Source: an uncultured Acidimicrobiales bacterium
Lineage (GTDB): Bacteria; Actinomycetota; Acidimicrobiia; Acidimicrobiales; CADCSY01
Assembly: GCA_902805555.1 (NCBI GenBank)
Contig: CADCSY010000102.1
Location: forward strand, 1 to 44,397
DNA: 44,397 nt
Reading direction: 5' to 3'
The notes below the pieces were generated by a model. That model was not told the DNA's origin, made no database searches, and saw nothing but the letters and a program-made list of their open reading frames with translations. Shown here piece after piece: positions 500 through 44,397 of this stretch (positions within the stretch are counted from its first letter, which is position 1; each line of letters begins with the position of its first letter). Made by a program: the position numbers and the translations under genes.

Positions 500-2713
500 G
501 TGCGAAGGCTGATCAGGTTCGTCGTCGTCGTGCTGGCCGGAGCGCTGCTCGTGATCTCGTCGCTCGCGCTGCTCGCGCCGCAGGTCGACACGATCCTGGA
601 CGCCAACCGCGTCGACCAGGCCGACGAGATCGACCTCGAGCCCCTGGCGCAGCGATCGGTCGTGCTCGCGGCCGACGGCAGCCTGTTGACCTACCTCCTC
701 GTCGAGGAGAACAGGGTGTCGGTCCCGCTCGAGGAGGTGTCGCCCACCTTCATCGACACGCTGCTCGCCATCGAGGACCAGCGGTTCTACGAGCACGACG
801 GCATCAACGTGCGGGCCACGGCCCGGGCGCTGCTCGAGAACGTCAACGCCGGAGGGGTCGAGCAGGGCGGCTCGACGATCACCCAGCAGCTCGTCAAGAA
901 CGCGCTGGTCGGCTCCGAGCAGAGCCTCGAGCGCAAGGTCGAGGAGGCGGTGCTGGCCCGGCGCCTCGAGGACCAGATGACGAAGGACGAGATCCTCGAG
1001 CGCTACCTGAACACCGTGTACCTCGGCAACAGCACCTACGGCGTCCAGGCGGCCGCCGAGCTGTACTTCGGGGTCTCAGCCAAGGACCTCGACGTCGCCC
1101 AGTCCGCGTTGCTCGTCGGGCTGATCCAGAACCCCGAGGACCGGAACCCCTTCAGGTACCCCGCCGCCGCCCGCTCCCGCCGGGACGACGTCGTGGATCG
1201 GCTCCTCAGCGTCGGCCAGATCGAGGAGCCCGTCGCCCGCTTCATCAAGGCGACGGCGCTCCCGACCGAGGGCTACGTCATCCCGAACCGGCCGAAGGAC
1301 TACTTCGTCGAAGAGGTGAAGGAGCGCCTGCTGCAGGACGAGCGCCTGGGTTCGACCCAGACCGAGCGCTACAACGCCCTGTACCGGGGCGGGCTCACCA
1401 TCCGCACCACGGTCGAGCCACGGCTCCAGCGCCTCGCCGACGAGGCGGTGTCGACCGTCCTGCCGGACACCGGCGGGCAGTTCACCGCCTCCATCGTGAG
1501 CATCGATCCCCGCAGCGGCGCCGTCCGGGCCATGGTGGGTGGCCCGGGCTTCGGCAACGCGCAGTACAACATCGCCACCCAGGGCATCGGCCGCCAGGCC
1601 GGCTCGTCGTTCAAGCCGTTCGTGCTCACGTCGATCCTGGAGCAGGGGAACACGGTGGAGGACACCGTGGACGGGTCCGGGCCCTGCAGCTTCCCGAACC
1701 CGGCCGGCACGCCGGACCCCTACCCGGTGTCGAACTTCGAGCGTGCTCGGGGCGGGGTGGGCGACCTCCGGGCGCAGACGCTGCGGTCGTCGAACTGCGC
1801 GTACGTCAGGTTGGGGATCATCGCCGGGATCGACAAGGTGCTGGAGACGGCGAAGCGGCTCGGCATCACCCGTCAGGACCTCGCGGTCCAGCTGTCCGCT
1901 CCTCTCGGGACGAACGAGGTCCGGCCCATCGACATGGCCTCCGCGTACGGGACCTTCGCCAACGACGGGGTGCACTTCGAGCCGTACTACGTGGAGGAGG
2001 TCACCGACCGGGACGGCAACGTCCTCTTCGAGGGGCCGACGACCGGGAAGCCGGTGCTCGACCCCGGCGTCGCCAGGACCGTCACGTCGGTGCTCGTCGA
2101 CAACGTCCGCAGCGGCACCGGGACGAGGGCGGCCTTCCCCGACGGGCGCCCGGCTGCCGGCAAGACGGGCACCACCCAGGACTCGGCCGACGCCTGGTTC
2201 GTCGGCTACACCCCCGAGCTCTCCACCGCGGTGTGGATGGGGTCGCCGGTCGACCGGACGCCGATGACGAACGTCGGGGGCATCAGGGTCACCGGCGGCA
2301 CCTACCCGGCTCGGATGTGGCAGGCGTACATGGGCCCGACGCTCCAGCCGTACGAGCCGCTCTCGTTCCCCGAGCCCCCTGCACCCGATCCGGCGCGGGT
2401 CTCCCAGCGCCTGAGGTTGCCCACCGAGGCCTGGGCCCAGGCCGTCGCCGACGCCGCCGAGAGGCGAGCACCCCAGCGCCGGGCCACGACCACCAGCCCC
2501 GCCCGCCGCAGCGCCCCCAGCACGACTGCGCCGGAGAGCGGCTCGGCGACCACTGCCACGTCGCCGGCCGCCACCACGCCGCCGGCGACCACGGCCCCCC
2601 CGGCCAGCCAGCCTGCGCCGACGACGGCAGAGGGCGCCAGTGCCGGCGACGGCGGCGGGAACGGCGATGGCGGCGGGAACGGCAACGGGAACGGCAACGG
2701 CTCGTCCGACTGA
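500..2713 (+). CDS. Bifunctional class A penicillin-binding protein
   Basis: Membrane-anchored peptidoglycan synthase of 737 residues that polymerises lipid II and cross-links the stem peptides outside the membrane. One N-terminal helix (about residues 5-25) anchors it. The GT51 glycosyltransferase domain has the EDQRFYEHDG motif with catalytic E92 and a GGSTITQQ motif. The transpeptidase domain carries S369-S-F-K372 (nucleophile Ser369), S430-S-N432 and K555-T-G557. The tail after about residue 650 is low complexity, rich in Pro/Thr/Ala and then Gly/Asn, as in mycobacterial PonA-type proteins. The GTG at 500 is chosen because it gives a short basic stretch before the helix. Both catalytic centres look intact. 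Confidence 0.95.
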   Translation: MRRLIRFVVVVLAGALLVISSLALLAPQVDTILDANRVDQADEIDLEPLAQRSVVLAADGSLLTYLLVEENRVSVPLEEVSPTFIDTLLAIEDQRFYEHDGINVRATARALLENVNAGGVEQGGSTITQQLVKNALVGSEQSLERKVEEAVLARRLEDQMTKDEILERYLNTVYLGNSTYGVQAAAELYFGVSAKDLDVAQSALLVGLIQNPEDRNPFRYPAAARSRRDDVVDRLLSVGQIEEPVARFIKATALPTEGYVIPNRPKDYFVEEVKERLLQDERLGSTQTERYNALYRGGLTIRTTVEPRLQRLADEAVSTVLPDTGGQFTASIVSIDPRSGAVRAMVGGPGFGNAQYNIATQGIGRQAGSSFKPFVLTSILEQGNTVEDTVDGSGPCSFPNPAGTPDPYPVSNFERARGGVGDLRAQTLRSSNCAYVRLGIIAGIDKVLETAKRLGITRQDLAVQLSAPLGTNEVRPIDMASAYGTFANDGVHFEPYYVEEVTDRDGNVLFEGPTTGKPVLDPGVARTVTSVLVDNVRSGTGTRAAFPDGRPAAGKTGTTQDSADAWFVGYTPELSTAVWMGSPVDRTPMTNVGGIRVTGGTYPARMWQAYMGPTLQPYEPLSFPEPPAPDPARVSQRLRLPTEAWAQAVADAAERRAPQRRATTTSPARRSAPSTTAPESGSATTATSPAATTPPATTAPPASQPAPTTAEGASAGDGGGNGDGGGNGNGNGNGSSD

Positions 2714-2749
2714 GCCGCCCCGCTCGGTGGCGGGCCAGACTGTCGGCCG

Positions 2750-3472
2750 ATGGCCGCCGCAGCCCTGCACACCCTCCTCGAGATCCAGGCGCTCGACACC
2801 CGGGCCGACCAGCTCACCCGTCGACGGGTGACCCTTCCCGAGCGGGCGGAGCTGGCCACCGTGGAGGCCCGTCGCTCCCGCCTCGCCGTGGACCGGGCTG
2901 CGACCGGTGCTCGGGTCCACGAGCTCGAGCGGACCCAGAAGCGGCTGGAGGACGAGGTCTCCATGCTCGAGGACAAGGCCACGAGCACCGACCGCCAGCT
3001 CTACAGCGGGACGGTGACGTCGCCACGTGAGCTGCAGGCGCTCCAGGACGAGGCGGCGTCCCTCCGCCGGCGCGTCGGCGCCGCAGAGGACCAGATCCTG
3101 GTCGTGATGGAGGATCTCGAGCCGCTGGTCGCCGAGGCTGGTGCGCAGGCCGCGGCCGGTGGAGCCGCCGACGAGCAGGCCGCGAGCCTCCGGGCGGCCG
3201 TGGCCGCCGAGGAGGGGTCGATCGACGAGGAGCTCCGGCGCGTGGCGGCCTCCCGGGCCGAGCTCCTGGCCGACGTCCCCCCCGCTCTGGTCTCGCAGTA
3301 CGAGCGGATCAGGGAGCGGGCGGGGGGCGTCGGGATCGCCAGGCTGGACGGCCACCGCTGCACGGGCTGCCACCTCGAGCTCCCGAACCGGGAGGTGGAC
3401 GAGCTCCGCCGAGCGCCGGCGGAGCAGGTCGTGCTCCACGAGGAGTGCGGGCGGATCCTGGTGCGGGACTGA
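2750..3472 (+). CDS. Coiled-coil zinc-ribbon protein (zf-RING_7/DUF164 type)
   Basis: 240 residues. Residues 5-180 are almost entirely charged heptad-like helix (long antiparallel coiled coil), followed by a C-terminal zinc ribbon, the layout of the CT398/DUF164 family. The family is widespread, and roles in nucleic-acid or flagellar-chaperone-like binding have been proposed; function here is unknown. The first knuckle is C204-x2-C207. The second is H230-x2-C233 rather than the usual C-x2-C, so one zinc ligand appears to be His. It lies 36 bases after the PBP gene and one base before the next gene, so it is probably co-transcribed with its neighbour. Confidence 0.85.
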   Translation: MAAAALHTLLEIQALDTRADQLTRRRVTLPERAELATVEARRSRLAVDRAATGARVHELERTQKRLEDEVSMLEDKATSTDRQLYSGTVTSPRELQALQDEAASLRRRVGAAEDQILVVMEDLEPLVAEAGAQAAAGGAADEQAASLRAAVAAEEGSIDEELRRVAASRAELLADVPPALVSQYERIRERAGGVGIARLDGHRCTGCHLELPNREVDELRRAPAEQVVLHEECGRILVRD

Positions 3473-3473
3473 C

Positions 3474-3959
3474 GTGCTGCTCTGGTTCGCCGGCGGCTCG
3501 TTCCTGGCCGTCTGGCTGGTGTTCCGCGACCCCGCGATCGACCACCGGCTCGTGGTCGCCGGGGCCGTCCTCCCCGACCTCGTCGACCTCCCCTCGGGCG
3601 GGCCGTGGATCGCGCACACCCTGCTCGCCAGCGTCGTGCTCCTGCTCGGGATCATGCTCGCCACCAGGGGCCGCCGGCTGCTGCGCCGCCAGCTCCTCGC
3701 GCTGCCCATCGGGACCTTCCTGCACCTCGTGCTCGACGGCGCCTGGGCCGACACCGAGACGTTCTGGTGGCCGGCGTTCGGCCTCGACCTCGGGGAGGGG
3801 CGCCTGCCGAGCCTCGAGCGGGGTGCGCTGAACGTCGTGCTGGAGCTCGCCGGTCTCGCCATCCTCGTCTGGGCCTGGCGCCGCTTCCGGCTCGGCGAGC
3901 CCGACCGCCGCCGGCACCTCCTCCGCTCGGGTCGCCTCGGGCGGGACCTCGTCGGCTGA
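3474..3959 (+). CDS. Small integral membrane protein, YdjM/DUF457-like
   Basis: 161 residues with about four hydrophobic segments. The motifs AGAVLPDLVD (about residues 24-33) and FLHLVLDG resemble the paired Asp/His motifs of membrane-bound metal-dependent hydrolases of the YdjM/DUF457 group, but the match is partial. The GTG start at 3474 lies one base after the zinc-ribbon gene's TGA, which argues for translational coupling; the same frame is open further upstream but only as a shadow of the previous gene. The C-terminus is arginine-rich and probably cytoplasmic. Function unknown. Confidence 0.75.
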   Translation: MLLWFAGGSFLAVWLVFRDPAIDHRLVVAGAVLPDLVDLPSGGPWIAHTLLASVVLLLGIMLATRGRRLLRRQLLALPIGTFLHLVLDGAWADTETFWWPAFGLDLGEGRLPSLERGALNVVLELAGLAILVWAWRRFRLGEPDRRRHLLRSGRLGRDLVG

Positions 3960-3973
3960 GCCTCGCCCCCCGG

Positions 3974-3979
3974 TAGCGT
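3974..3979 (+). promoter_or_regulatory. Candidate leaderless -10 box (TAGCGT)
   Basis: TAGCGT lies exactly six bases before the ATG at 3986, so the first transcribed base would be the A of the start codon. There is no Shine-Dalgarno sequence in the 26-base gap, which supports a leaderless transcript. Confidence 0.45.
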
Positions 3980-3985
3980 CCGCGG

Positions 3986-5536
3986 ATGGCCGGGACGGAC
4001 TTCGACAGCCGCATCGCAGCCGCCTACGCGGCGACGGGCGCCACCCTCGACCTCGGGCGGGGGGTGCTGGACGGCGAGGTCCGCCAGGGTGCCGCGGTGC
4101 GGGTGCCGGTCTCGATGATGAACCGCCACGGCCTCATCGCAGGGGCCACCGGGACCGGCAAGACCAGGACGCTCCAGCTGCTGGCCGAGCAGCTGTCGGC
4201 GCTCGGGGTGCCGGTGTTCGCCGCCGACGTGAAGGGCGACCTCTCGGGCATCACGAGGCCGGGCGTCGATGGCGGACGGGTGGCCGAGCGGGTGGCGCAG
4301 CTGGGGGTCGAGTGGGGCCCCGCCGCCAGCCCCGTCAGCTTCCTCTCGCTCGGCGGCATCGGCCCGGGCGTCCCGCTGCGGGCCTCGCTCTCGTCGTTCG
4401 GCCCGGTCCTGCTGGCCAAGGTGCTCGGGTCGAACGAGACCCAGACGTCCTCGTTGGCGCTCGTGTTCCGCTACGCAAAGGACCGGGACCTCGCGCTCGT
4501 CGACCTCGACGACCTCCGGGCGGTCCTCGCCCACCTCACCGGTGACGAGGGCAAGGCGGACCTGAAGGAGCTGGGCGGGCTGTCCCGCGCCACCGCCGGC
4601 GTCCTCCTGCGCGACATCCTCGAGCTCGAGGACCAGGGGGGCGGCGCCCTCTTCGGCGAGCCCGAGCTCGAGGTGGCCGACCTGCTGCGCCGGGACGACG
4701 GGCGCGGCGTCGTCAGCCTGCTCGAGCTCGCGGCCGTGCAGGACAAGCCGAAGCTGTTCAGCACGTTCCTCATGTGGCTCCTCGCCGAGCTGTTCGCCGA
4801 CCTCCCCGAGGAGGGTGACCTCGACCAGCCGAAGCTGGTGTTCTTCTTCGACGAGGCCCACCTGCTGTTCGACGACGCCGACGAGGCGTTCGTCGACCGG
4901 GTGGCGCAGACGGTGCGCCTGATCCGGTCGAAGGGGGTCGGCGTGTTCTTCGTGACCCAGCTCCCCGACGACGTCCCCGAGAAGGTGCTGTCACAGCTCG
5001 GCAACCGGGTGCAGCACGCCCTGCGGGCGTTCACGCCTCGTGACGCGAAGGCGCTGAAGGCGGCGGTGACGACCTATCCGAACACGACGGACTACGACCT
5101 CGAGGAGGACCTGACCCAGCTCGCGACCGGGGACGCGATGGTCACCATCCTGTCCGAGGGCGGTGCCCCGACGCCGGTCGTCTGGACCCGCCTGCGCCCG
5201 CCGGCCTCGCTCATGGACACCATCGGGGACGCTGCGATAAGAGCGGCGGCCGAGGCCGACCCGCTCTTCGCCATGTACGGCCGGCAGGTGGACCGCTCGT
5301 CGGCGGCGGACGCCCTCGCGGCGCGCGAGGCGGACGTCCCCCCGCTCGACCACGAAGCTCCCGCACCGGACGAGGGAGGACCGGTACCGGAGGTGCGCCG
5401 GCCGAGGCGCCGACGGACCCGGGAGCCGGTCGAGGACGAGGGCGCAGTCGTCGGCTACCTCAAGAGCCGGGAGGGCCGCACCATGGTGAACACCGTCGTC
5501 CGGGGCGTGTTCGGCCTCCTCAGGAAGCGGCGCTGA
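3986..5536 (+). CDS. HerA-like ATPase, DUF853 (YjgR) family
   Basis: 516-residue cytoplasmic P-loop ATPase of the HerA/FtsK superfamily. Walker A is GATGTGKT at residues 53-60 (Lys59); Walker B is LVFFFDEAH with D289 and E290. The FFVTQLPDDVP stretch is the family sensor region, and RVQHALRAFTPRD near residue 340 is also typical of DUF853. The C-terminal 60 residues are charged and variable. Family members are predicted DNA-translocating or remodelling ATPases, but the substrate is unknown and no nuclease partner such as NurA is adjacent. It converges on the next gene with a 17-base tail-to-tail overlap. Confidence 0.9.
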   Translation: MAGTDFDSRIAAAYAATGATLDLGRGVLDGEVRQGAAVRVPVSMMNRHGLIAGATGTGKTRTLQLLAEQLSALGVPVFAADVKGDLSGITRPGVDGGRVAERVAQLGVEWGPAASPVSFLSLGGIGPGVPLRASLSSFGPVLLAKVLGSNETQTSSLALVFRYAKDRDLALVDLDDLRAVLAHLTGDEGKADLKELGGLSRATAGVLLRDILELEDQGGGALFGEPELEVADLLRRDDGRGVVSLLELAAVQDKPKLFSTFLMWLLAELFADLPEEGDLDQPKLVFFFDEAHLLFDDADEAFVDRVAQTVRLIRSKGVGVFFVTQLPDDVPEKVLSQLGNRVQHALRAFTPRDAKALKAAVTTYPNTTDYDLEEDLTQLATGDAMVTILSEGGAPTPVVWTRLRPPASLMDTIGDAAIRAAAEADPLFAMYGRQVDRSSAADALAAREADVPPLDHEAPAPDEGGPVPEVRRPRRRRTREPVEDEGAVVGYLKSREGRTMVNTVVRGVFGLLRKRR

Positions 5537-38006: not shown

Positions 38007-40592
<2,586 letters not shown>

Positions 40593-40609: not shown

Positions 40610-40756
40610 GTCCACCACGCCCCTCTGCGCGCATCGGCCGCCAGTCGACGACGCGGCTGCGCCACCCGGCGGGCCGAGGTGGTAGGACGGAGCACCCTGA
40701 CCGTCGCCGAACGGGGGAGGACCGATGCCGTTCCCGAGCACGTCACACCGGGGCCC

Positions 40757-41704
40757 ATGAGCCCGAGCGAGGGGTCGTCCCGGGCAGGCGTGCCGTTGAC
40801 GAACCTCGACGACCCCCTCTTCGACGGGTCCGGGGCCACGAAGCGGGATCTGGTCGACTACCTCGACGCCGTGGCCGACGCCATCCTCCCGGAGCTCGAG
40901 GACAGGCCCCTCTCGGTCATCCGTGCCCGACCCGGCCAGAAGCCGTTCATGCAGAAGAACGTCCCGAAGTCGACGCCGGACTGGGTGCGCACCACCACGA
41001 TGTGGGCCGAGGCGTCCCACCGCGACGTCACCTACGCGCTCTGCGACGACCGACGGACGCTGCTGTGGTTCGCGAACCAGCGCGCCGTCGAGTACCACCC
41101 TGCGCTCGTGCCCGTGGACCGGGACGCCGCGACGCACCTCGTGCTCGACCTCGACCCACCTGAGGGCGGCCCCTTCGCCGACGTGGTCCGGGTTGCCGAG
41201 CTCGTGCGCCAGGCCCTGGCCGAGGCGGGCCTCGCAGGTGCCCTGAAGACGAGCGGCTCGAAGGGCGTGCACGTGTTCGTGCCGCTCGACGAGGGGACCA
41301 CCCTCGAGGACACCGCGGCTGCCACGAGGGCGCTGGCGGCCCGCGCCGAGCGCCTCGACCCCGAGATCGCCACGACGGCCTTCGTCCGAGCGGAGCGGGC
41401 CGGCAAGGTGTTCGTCGACTCGACCCGGACCGGCGGCGCCACCGTCGTCGCCGCCTACAGCCCCAGGATCCGGCCCGCGGCGCCCGTGTCGTTCCCGCTG
41501 GCCTGGGAGGAGCTGGCCGAGGTGGTGCCGTCGGAGCTGACCATCCTCACCGCCGTGGAGCGCCTGGCGGGACGGGACCCGTGGAGGGAGGCGATGCCCG
41601 CCCCCGAGGTGCTTCCCCCCGACCTCGTCGAGGAGGGCCGGGAGATCCCCCTGGCCCGGGTGCAGGCCATGCACGAGGGGAAGCGCCGCGCCCGCCGCCC
41701 GTAG
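40757..41704 (+). CDS. LigD-type primase-polymerase domain protein, stand-alone
   Basis: 315-residue archaeo-eukaryotic primase (AEP) polymerase like the PolDom of LigD, used in non-homologous end joining to fill gaps with NTPs. Metal-binding D131 and D133 (LVLDLDPPEG) and D221 (FVDSTRT) are intact; KTSGSKGVHVFVPL and AAYSPRIRPAAPVSFPLAWEEL are family blocks. There is no ligase or nuclease domain in the same frame, and no ku gene in the window. ATG at 40757 has a weak ribosome site; the same frame is open to a GTG at 40679. Cytoplasmic, DNA-repair role inferred. Confidence 0.9.
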   Translation: MSPSEGSSRAGVPLTNLDDPLFDGSGATKRDLVDYLDAVADAILPELEDRPLSVIRARPGQKPFMQKNVPKSTPDWVRTTTMWAEASHRDVTYALCDDRRTLLWFANQRAVEYHPALVPVDRDAATHLVLDLDPPEGGPFADVVRVAELVRQALAEAGLAGALKTSGSKGVHVFVPLDEGTTLEDTAAATRALAARAERLDPEIATTAFVRAERAGKVFVDSTRTGGATVVAAYSPRIRPAAPVSFPLAWEELAEVVPSELTILTAVERLAGRDPWREAMPAPEVLPPDLVEEGREIPLARVQAMHEGKRRARRP

Positions 41705-41819: not shown

Positions 41820-42347
41820 TCAGCTGTCGGACTCCTCGGTCGCGACGGCGCTCAGGTAGGGCTGGCCCTCGAACTCCTCGAGCCCGGCGGTGTCGACGTC
41901 GCCGAGGTCGTCGATTCGGAGCTGCTCCTCGATCGTCCCCTCGACGCCGTACCCGGTGCCCTCCTCGACCTCGACGCCCTCGGCGTCCTCTGACCGCACG
42001 ACGACGATCGGGTCTCCGCCCTCGGTGGCCACCAGGAAGGCATCGGGGCTCAGCACCCGCTCGACAGGCCCGACGATCGCGACCTCGCAGCCGAAGAACG
42101 GCTCTGCGTCGCTGGCGACCTCGACGGTCTCGTCCTTGCCCTCCTTGCCTGCGTACTCGGGGCACTCCTGGCCGCTCAGCCCGACCCCCTCGGGGTCGTC
42201 GTCACCGGCGTTGCGGATGAGGAGGAAGGCGAGGGCTGCGAGCAGGAGGAGGCCGAGCAGCGCCCACAGCCAGCCCAGGCCCCTCTTCTTCTTCGTGTCG
42301 TTCCGTCCGCCGGCGCTCACCGAGCCGACGTTGCGTCCCTCTGCCAT
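41820..42347 (-). CDS. Single-pass membrane protein with external OB-like domain
   Basis: 175 residues. A basic N-terminus (NDTKKKRGLG) precedes one membrane helix (about 25-44, WLWALLGLLLLAALAFLLI), leaving the acidic C-terminal part outside. Residues 80-165 show alternating beta-strand pattern (CEVAIVGPVERVLSPDAFLV, VEEGTGYGVEGTIEEQL) that looks like a small OB-type barrel, similar in pattern to the C-terminal domain of the divergent sigma-factor fusion. Two Cys may form a disulfide. ATG at 42347 with GAGGAG eight bases upstream. Not recognised as a named family; function unknown. Confidence 0.8.
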   Translation of the reverse strand: MAEGRNVGSVSAGGRNDTKKKRGLGWLWALLGLLLLAALAFLLIRNAGDDDPEGVGLSGQECPEYAGKEGKDETVEVASDAEPFFGCEVAIVGPVERVLSPDAFLVATEGGDPIVVVRSEDAEGVEVEEGTGYGVEGTIEEQLRIDDLGDVDTAGLEEFEGQPYLSAVATEESDS

Positions 42348-42396: not shown

Positions 42397-42569
42397 GGTC
42401 GCACGGCAGGCGCATCTCGCCGAGCCTGGTGGGAGGAACGCCGCTGCCAGCCGGCCATTAGGTACGACCCCGGCGGCCTCGCACTCCGGTCGCACGGCAG
42501 GAGCATCTCGCCGAGCCTGGTAGGAGGTGCCCCGCCGCCGGGTGGCCATGAGGTAGGGCCCAGGCGGCC
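42397..42569. repeat. Two direct copies of an 82-bp intergenic element, 91 bp apart
   Basis: Copies at 42397-42478 and 42488-42569 share GGTCGCACGGCAG, GCATCTCGCCGAGCCTGGT and a final GGCGGCC, with divergence in the middle. They fill most of the 284-base region between two divergent genes. No coding capacity of convincing codon use is seen in them. Confidence 0.75.
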
Positions 42570-42631: not shown

Positions 42632-43861
42632 GTGAAGACGCCCACATCACGAGCTCGGCCGCTCGACGTGGAGGAGGTGGACGAGCTCACGGCCGTGGTG
42701 CGGCGAGTCGTGCGGGCCAGGGTTCGCGACCCGCACCTCGTCGACGACATCGTGCAGGAGACGCTGACCCGCGTCCTGGCCCAGGGCGACGAGGTCGATC
42801 CGGTCGCCCGCCGACCGTATGCGATCGTCACCGCCACCAACCTGGTCTCGTCCACGTTCCGGGCCGAGGGCAGGCGCGCCCGCGGCATGCACCGTCTCGT
42901 CGATCCTGCAGCATCGGACCTCCCGGAGGACGAGCTGGTGCGGGGGGACGAGCGCGAGTCGATGAGCCACGCGATCACCCGGTTGAACGAGCGGGACCGC
43001 GAGGTGCTGATCTCCCACGAGGTGCACGACGTCTCGACCAAGGCGCTCGCCTCCGGCGCCGGCACGTCGGCGGGGGCCATCGCCGTGCGCCTGGCAGCGG
43101 CACGGGCGAAGCTCCGGCTCGAGTACGTGCTGGCGCACAGGCGGGAGGACCCGCTTCCCGCCCACTGCCGCTCCGTCCTCCTGGCCCTCTCCGCCGGCGA
43201 CCGCAGGCGCCAGTCTGCGCTCGACGCCGAGGGCCACGTCGGTTCGTGCGACCGGTGCTCCGAGCTGAGCAAGCCCCTGCTGGCCAGGAGCAGGGCCACG
43301 GTGGCGCTCGTCCCGCTCCTCGCCGTCCGCTGGGTGCTCGAGCACGGATCGTCGGCGGTGCGCCGCCACCCGAAGGCCTCCGCAGCCGGAGCCGCTGCCG
43401 CTGCCGCCGTGCTGGTCGTGGGACAGGCCGTCGTCACGGCGCCTCCGGAGGGAGGCGAGCCGCCGCCCGTGGAGGCAGCCGCCCCCCGGTCGGAGCGTCC
43501 GCCGGAGGACGCAGCCGGACCCGTGGCGGTCGACGGCGCCGATGTCCGCTCCCTCCCGGCCGACCAGCTCGCCGGTCGGCCGGTCCAGGTCCGCTCGGCG
43601 GTGATCGAGTCCGTGCCCGCCGACGAGGGCTTCTGGATCCAGGACGGCTCGGGTGGGCGGATCTGGGTGCAGCTCACGACCCACGACGAGTCGGCGATCG
43701 AGATCCGAGCCGGCGAGCGGGTGACCTTCGACGGGGTCCTCGTGGAGACACCCGAGGCGTTCCCGACGCAGGTCGGGGCGGAGCCGCCGGAGGGGGCGGC
43801 GGAGCTCGTCCCCGGGGGCGCCCACATCGAGGTGCCGGCAGCAGGGGTCGAGCCCGGCTGA
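42632..43861 (+). CDS. Sigma factor fused to zinc anti-sigma motif, membrane helix and external OB-like domain
   Basis: 409 residues in one frame. An ECF-type sigma factor spans about 10-170: region 2 (LVDDIVQETLTRVL, AIVTATNLVSSTFRAEGRR) and region 4 (LNERDREVLISHEV, AGAIAVRLAAARAKLRL). A zinc anti-sigma motif follows: H178-C179, then H202-x3-C206-x2-C209. A helix at about 249-268 (ASAAGAAAAAAVLVVGQAVV) crosses the membrane, followed by a Pro/Glu linker and an external beta-rich OB-like domain (about 305-395). The protein should be a membrane-tethered sigma factor needing cleavage or a shape change to act. Related sigma/anti-sigma fusions (for example ECF52-like groups) are known in actinobacteria; this external domain is unusual. 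Confidence 0.88.
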   Translation: MKTPTSRARPLDVEEVDELTAVVRRVVRARVRDPHLVDDIVQETLTRVLAQGDEVDPVARRPYAIVTATNLVSSTFRAEGRRARGMHRLVDPAASDLPEDELVRGDERESMSHAITRLNERDREVLISHEVHDVSTKALASGAGTSAGAIAVRLAAARAKLRLEYVLAHRREDPLPAHCRSVLLALSAGDRRRQSALDAEGHVGSCDRCSELSKPLLARSRATVALVPLLAVRWVLEHGSSAVRRHPKASAAGAAAAAAVLVVGQAVVTAPPEGGEPPPVEAAAPRSERPPEDAAGPVAVDGADVRSLPADQLAGRPVQVRSAVIESVPADEGFWIQDGSGGRIWVQLTTHDESAIEIRAGERVTFDGVLVETPEAFPTQVGAEPPEGAAELVPGGAHIEVPAAGVEPG

Positions 43862-43998: not shown

Positions 43999-44397
43999 AT
44001 GGCAAGCGACATGACACTCGAGAGGCTCGACGGGCGGCCCGTGATCGGCAGCGACGGCAGCAAGATCGGGACGGTCGACGACATCTACTTCGACCAGGAC
44101 ACCCGTGAGCCGGAGTGGGCGCTGGTCAAGACCGGCCTGTTCGGCAGCAAGAGCACGTTCGTCCCGATCACCAACGCCACGGTGCAGGGCGACGAGCTGC
44201 AGGTCCCGTTCAGCAAGGACCAGGTGAAGGGCGCCCCCAACCTCGACGACGACGGGGAGCTCAGCCAGGACGAGGAGGCCATGCTCGCCCAGTACTACGG
44301 GATGTCCTACAGCGAGGCCCCGTCGGACAGCGGCCTCCCCCAGGGTGGTGGCCAGGCGACCCAGACCACCCAGGCCGCCCAGCCGACCGTCGGTCGC
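43999..44397 (+). CDS. PRC-barrel domain protein, 3' end outside window
   Basis: 133 codons, no stop before the window ends. Residues 5-75 form a PRC-barrel (GRPVIGSDGSKIGTVDDIYF, then WALVKTGLFGSKSTFVPI), a small beta-barrel found in ribosome maturation and photosynthetic proteins and in stand-alone stress-type actinobacterial proteins. An acidic segment (LSQDEEAMLAQYYGM) and a Gln/Thr/Ala-rich linker follow, so a second domain is probably cut off. ATG at 43999 with AAGGAG nine bases upstream. It follows the sigma-factor fusion and may be one of its targets, which is only a guess. Confidence 0.85.
   Translation, partial: MASDMTLERLDGRPVIGSDGSKIGTVDDIYFDQDTREPEWALVKTGLFGSKSTFVPITNATVQGDELQVPFSKDQVKGAPNLDDDGELSQDEEAMLAQYYGMSYSEAPSDSGLPQGGGQATQTTQAAQPTVGR

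Follow-up and report, generated by a model that had tools for sequence, protein, structure and literature searches.

A putative self-inhibited ECF sigma factor fused to a zinc anti-sigma-like segment, a membrane helix and a predicted extracytoplasmic OB domain in Actinomycetota

The window that we analyzed (the whole stretch of 44,397 nucleotides; contig C102 of a 2.9-Mb genome in 135 contigs) carries a gene (42632..43861, plus strand) whose 409-residue product joins an ECF sigma factor, a zinc anti-sigma-like (ZAS) segment, a predicted membrane helix (TM) and a predicted OB domain in a single polypeptide. Judged from its sequence and from structural models, this protein is probably a self-inhibited, membrane-tethered sigma/anti-sigma fusion that takes its input through the extracytoplasmic OB domain, and the CmpX-like genes that usually adjoin its relatives in other families suggest that it may report the state of the cell envelope. 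The frame begins with a GTG codon (the one at 42632 or another in-frame GTG up to about 42680, the choice being uncertain), has no internal stops, and shows a high third-position GC content with an unbroken coding signal over its entire length. It is one intact open reading frame, and because 16 OB-type proteins align with it end to end, colinear at 34-43% identity, it must have evolved as one unit and is no artefact. The first-pass annotation of this DNA had named the same domains, all of which are indeed present in the protein; it had also taken sigma/anti-sigma fusions to be a known kind, for which ECF48, ECF52 and ECF53, SCO4117 and IutY are precedents, and had expected no separate anti-sigma gene, and none adjoins the fusion in the window.

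A search for the same architecture in related genomes, which that annotation had proposed, was rewarding. From 59 relatives it gave full-length homologues at 40-45% identity, and a profile built from eight homologues (A1, threshold E <= 1e-20) found matches in 13 of the 397 genomes from the order and in 15 of the 396 from a sample of the phylum. Sorted by their C-terminal domain, the fusions amount to 20 sigma-ZAS-TM-OB genes, including that of the window, and 7 sigma-ZAS-kinase genes; the former are spread over 18 genomes and 8 families of Actinomycetota, and one of them (L117) has a broken frame. The single-protein scan of genome contigs returned no match, and the alignment-based scan mostly plain ECF sigma factors, with L038 and L039 as two further loci of use. 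The broken gene L117 (4770-5960, in genome G170, where CmpX-like genes are absent) runs over several frames, being either a pseudogene or the product of sequencing errors. At L037 (3112-5271) an OB fragment whose frame changes abuts a remnant of sigma region 4 on the opposite strand, and this broken relative adjoins intact TM-OB, CmpX-like and PRC-barrel genes.

The sigma part (residues ~14-164; 42671..43123, plus strand) holds regions 2 and 4 only, as ECF sigma-70 factors do, and both regions claimed at first reading are firmly recognized: the Pfam cut-offs are exceeded by Sigma70_r2 (residues 22-82, E 9.5e-7) and by Sigma70_r4_2 (residues 110-161, E 3.5e-6), TIGR02937 (sigma70-ECF, E 3.7e-15) exceeds that of NCBIfam, and the family profile matches with E 2e-63. 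AlphaFold, with a pLDDT mostly above 90 over the sigma domains, and Foldseek agree. By sequence the closest solved chains are SigL and SigE of Mycobacterium tuberculosis, with SigL as the best match in the PDB (E 0.0025). Compared with 28 other ECF factors, the sigma domains of the OB-type and kinase-type fusions form one clade (SH-aLRT 100), within which the two types are not cleanly separated and few changes between them are needed; from this mixture it follows that the same sigma-ZAS core has received different C-terminal inputs.

Next to the sigma part lies the ZAS segment (43145..43297, plus strand), which resembles class I anti-sigma domains (ASD). Its four putative zinc ligands, C179, H202, C206 and C209 in the arrangement C179-x22-H202-x3-C206-x2-C209, are invariant in all 24 aligned fusions of the OB and kinase types. 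In a PDB profile search with E values up to 10, this segment found two chains only, both of them anti-sigma factors and both weak matches: 3hug (E 0.023), deposited as a conserved membrane protein, which we take to be RslA, and DdvA (E 2.1). The motif Hx3Cx2C is the signature of zinc-containing class I anti-sigma domains (PMC7406223); here it stands with its upstream ligand in every aligned fusion, within a helical stretch of residues 177-245 that AlphaFold resolves with moderate confidence into helices at 177-189, 191-199 and 206-245. The original claim of a ZAS domain is thus upheld as far as the HxxxCxxC motif (H202-C206-C209), its conservation and the exclusively anti-sigma PDB matches go, though none of the 24 family members reaches the Pfam zf-HC2 cut-off, the best being one member with E 0.11.

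Further along the protein there is one hydrophobic, alanine-rich segment (residues ~250-270, mean Kyte-Doolittle value 1.89; 43379..43441, plus strand), the single membrane helix of the first reading. Its charges, with the greater positive charge on the N-terminal flank in 16 of 17 members, predict that the N-terminus is inside and the C-terminus outside, and AlphaFold models it as well. A flexible linker rich in proline and glutamate (43442..43516, plus strand; pLDDT below 50 at residues 269-294) leads to the predicted extracytoplasmic OB-fold domain (43517..43855, plus strand), with the motif VPADEGFW...R.WVQL...ES...G.R..F.G, in which the EGFW and ES positions are conserved across the 8 families. 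This domain is modeled as five strands in OB order, and the top Foldseek matches of the model are nearly all OB folds (the anticodon domain of AspRS, RPA, Ten1, YgiW, IF1). The fold is therefore supported by prediction, strong in pattern and weak in score: the best Foldseek E value is 0.014, with none below 1e-3, and the model confidence is low (54 when the domain is modeled by itself, and about 80 at residues 300-370 when the whole protein is), the prediction having drawn on the window sequence and its related loci, which gave the alignment two OB rows only. None of the Pfam families fits, the BOF family being approached by one member only (E 0.044), so that the domain is an OB-like family without a name. 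Of the 17 aligned proteins, 13 lack cysteines past the membrane helix, and the other four (L113, L121, L122, L123) have two there and no more, the first shortly ahead of the OB domain and the second within it; the same pair is visible by eye in L117. Cysteines that come both or not at all, never singly, fit an extracytoplasmic disulfide. Stand-alone TM-OB proteins with the same OB domain are encoded at L118, L037 and L159, within the same clusters. A more distant OB-like module ends the proline-rich membrane or secreted-looking proteins of L175, L177, L178 and L180, which have no sigma domain, and apparently represents an extracytoplasmic domain that is more widely spread in Actinomycetota and has no name. 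The external module had been called unusual, but the fusion does not have it to itself: the TM-OB genes and other membrane proteins carry it too.

Of immediate interest for the function of the fusion are its neighbors. Within 6 kb of 12 of the 20 OB-type fusions, and often divergent from them, there is a gene for a CmpX-like protein with the conserved helix of mechanosensitive channels (PF05552). Their products match PF05552 and remain below the cut-off of the NCBIfam msc model, so that channel activity is only putative. With only one or two such genes per genome (none in G170), the chance that random placement would give 11 linked loci out of 19 is about 3e-20, a figure to be read with the fact that related loci are not independent. 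A gene for a PRC-barrel protein, mostly with DUF2382, lies near 15 of the 20 fusions in the stretches fetched, including that of the window, where the PRC-barrel gene (43999..44397, plus strand; PRC E 4.7e-14) is cut by the contig end. The genome of the window has three PRC genes and two CmpX-like genes; neither of the latter is linked to the fusion in the assembly as it stands, in which the contig ends 0.5 kb downstream of the fusion.

A split version is found at L158 (genome G896, 548-4188), where an ECF sigma gene (548-1078), an anti-sigma gene, a CmpX-like gene and a PRC-barrel/DUF2382 gene follow each other on the same strand. The stop of the sigma gene is 1 nt from the start of the anti-sigma gene, whose 465-residue product contains RHLDGCSQC, a membrane helix, a region without assignment, and at its end the OB domain (E 8e-26). 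This sigma factor belongs to another ECF lineage than those of the fusions. The OB module here forms the sensor end of a sigma/anti-sigma gene pair of conventional layout, beside the same two neighboring genes.

On its other side the fusion of the window has a divergent neighbor (41820..42347, minus strand) of 175 residues, with a membrane helix and an external domain that is weakly BOF/OB-like (BOF E 0.087). That this protein carries the same OB domain was considered and could not be established (hhalign E 0.045, probability 1.2), and among 98 relatives it has no full-length homologue, the matches being confined to the membrane helix. Between the two divergent genes there are two direct repeats of 82 nt (42397..42569, plus strand; 84% identical, spacing 91), which contain inverted repeats and have no copies elsewhere in their own genome. 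Farther upstream the window encodes an 861-residue protein (38007-40592, plus strand) composed of a flavin monooxygenase-like half and an alpha/beta hydrolase (Abhydrolase_3, E 8e-73), and a stand-alone LigD primase-polymerase domain (40679-41704, plus strand; PF21686, E 4e-79).

By k-mer enumeration, a promoter-like element, TGAAACG-N17-(A/G)TTACGC, was found to recur 51-142 nt before the start of several fusion genes, which suggests autoregulation. Scored against shuffled sequences it reaches p <= 0.015 in 10 of the 20 OB-type fusions, among them L117 with a variant -10 and five lineages outside genus g3 (L113, L124, L148, L149, L152). The consensus used for scoring is that of g3, so that the other lineages are a partial hold-out, the seed having already been seen in all. 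At this threshold it is absent from the 13 CmpX and 14 PRC upstream regions, and before the kinase fusions it is not convincing; upstream of the fusion in the window there is no significant copy (p 0.215). The standard ECF motif, tried as well, occurs before the fusions at about chance level.

The seven kinase fusions (L029 4864-5943, on contig C92 of the genome of the window; L116; L119; L154; L155; L156; and L039, from Humibacillus xanthopallidus) append to the sigma-ZAS core a HATPase_c_2 domain that is nearest to SpoIIAB/RsbW by profile (RsbW/RsbT-like). In all seven loci the fusion is followed by RsbR-like and RsbS-like STAS genes, and in none, within the stretches fetched, is there a CmpX-like or PRC gene beside it. 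In these loci an ECF sigma factor is possibly held directly by a stressosome. A more general notion, to which we give just short of an even chance, is that of a plug-in core: an ECF sigma-ZAS unit wired either to the surface (TM and OB, CmpX-like, PRC) or to a stressosome (kinase, RsbR/RsbS-like). The surface version would then be a one-protein sigma factor for membrane tension or envelope stress, and the kinase version a stressosome with a direct hold on its sigma factor.

For the fusion of the window we propose that the zinc segment would fold as an anti-sigma domain and clamp sigma2 and sigma4 in cis, the clamped factor being held at the membrane, while the OB domain outside, alone or docked to a CmpX-like protein or a TM-OB partner, would sense a change of the envelope such as membrane tension, cell-wall stress or envelope stress. 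This signal would loosen the clamp by a conformational change or set off stepwise proteolysis, and the freed sigma factor would transcribe its own gene and others. Both routes have been proposed for the release of ECF52-type fusions (PMC5826349, PMC8999054), and regulated proteolysis was shown for IutY and proposed for ECF48, ECF52 and ECF53 (PMC8999054); we rate proteolytic release here as evenly balanced. The first-pass annotation saw in the OB domain a sensor of stress or of a ligand. A sensor role agrees with the split homologue, whose membrane anti-sigma ends in the same OB domain, but the linkage of CmpX-like genes in relatives points to an envelope or membrane-tension signal rather than a small ligand; membrane tension in particular is a tentative choice, to which we incline somewhat less than to its alternatives taken together.

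Among other readings, the one that fares best, although we think it improbable by a fair measure, leaves the fusion self-inhibited and makes the OB domain a docking module that binds a TM-OB partner, a component of the cell wall or the CmpX-like protein, the last being the tension sensor. The CmpX-like genes close to 12 of the fusions and the stand-alone TM-OB genes in the same clusters would fit this, as would the role of proposed sensor that CmpX has in the SigX-CfrX-CmpX system of Pseudomonas aeruginosa (PMC7641640). It accounts poorly, however, for the fusions without a linked CmpX-like gene, above all in G170, which has none, and for the presence of the OB domain in proteins without a link to sigma factors. 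Unlikely, in our view, is a sensory zinc segment, in which thiol oxidation or loss of zinc would free the sigma factor, with the OB domain only anchoring the protein or binding the envelope: the ligand set is fully conserved, in the kinase-fused paralogues too, and resembles the redox ZAS set of RsrA (RsrA/ChrR-type domains), but this leaves the conservation of the EGFW and ES positions and the retention of the OB domain in the split anti-sigma without a reason, and in membrane-bound anti-sigma factors the zinc domains may have a structural role and not one in sensing (PMC7406223). Still less credit is due to the view that the C-terminal part merely tethers a constitutively active sigma factor under transcriptional control; the promoter-like element would be in its favor, whereas the invariant zinc ligands, the split version laid out as a classic sigma/anti-sigma operon, and the activation of the fused IutY by removal of its extension (PMC8999054) speak for self-inhibition. 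Finally, draft contigs do carry errors that join two genes, as the broken frame of L117 may recall, but a frameshift or assembly error is ruled out here by the continuous coding signal and by the full-length colinear homologues from several families.

Little is understood of how bacteria convert membrane tension or damage to the envelope into gene expression, and Pseudomonas offers the sole studied case in which an ECF sigma factor is linked to a CmpX channel. The self-inhibited fusion would bring such a link to another phylum in compact form, with the genes side by side and a promoter predicted, which makes the idea testable with one protein, and the split homologue L158 tells the anti-sigma sensor apart from the rest. 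The kinase-fused paralogues would in turn couple ECF sigma factors to stressosome signaling, a pairing deemed non-interacting in a coevolution study that used RsbW as its control (PMC7406223). A full-text literature search gave neither an OB-domain sigma/anti-sigma fusion nor an ECF-CmpX-PRC cluster in Actinobacteria, and neither the split form nor paralogues with a kinase in place of the OB input turned up in the literature searched, although the 2021 ECF reclassification could already contain the clade.

Fusions of a sigma and an anti-sigma factor with a membrane helix and an external domain are already known as ECF48, ECF52, ECF53 and IutY. Close in plan is ECF52 (SCO4117 of Streptomyces coelicolor; likewise ECF48 and ECF53), also from Actinomycetota, where a single protein combines a sigma factor, a zinc finger or ZAS, a membrane helix and an extracytoplasmic domain (PMC5826349, PMC8999054). 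In SCO4117 the zinc finger is of the pfam13490 family and is accompanied by a long proline-rich stretch and a carbohydrate-binding module; in the window protein the membrane helix and the zinc motif are present, and an OB domain was found in place of the carbohydrate module. Compared by description, the family of the window further differs in its zf-HC2 scores below the cut-off, its short linker, and the CmpX and PRC neighbors in relatives. IutY of Pseudomonas putida (ECF243) is likewise an ECF sigma factor fused to its own membrane anti-sigma (PMC8999054), but it serves Gram-negative cell-surface signaling for iron, with another external part and without OB, CmpX or PRC. The RslA-SigL pair of M. 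tuberculosis provides the best, if weak, PDB matches of the zinc segment (E 0.023) and the sigma part (E 0.0025), there as two separate proteins. To YgiW/BOF and other OB folds the likeness is one of the model (YgiW 1nnx, TM-score 0.62 normalized to the target), with no significant sequence match to the OB domain. In SigX-CfrX-CmpX of P. aeruginosa (ECF102) an ECF sigma gene stands beside a CmpX/MscS-type gene, as do 12 of the 20 OB-type fusions though not that of the window, and a membrane-tension or envelope signal has been proposed (PMC7641640, PMC10965496); the candidate anti-sigma factor CfrX is small and separate, whereas in the family of the window the anti-sigma-like domain is fused to the sigma factor and continues into a membrane helix and an OB domain.
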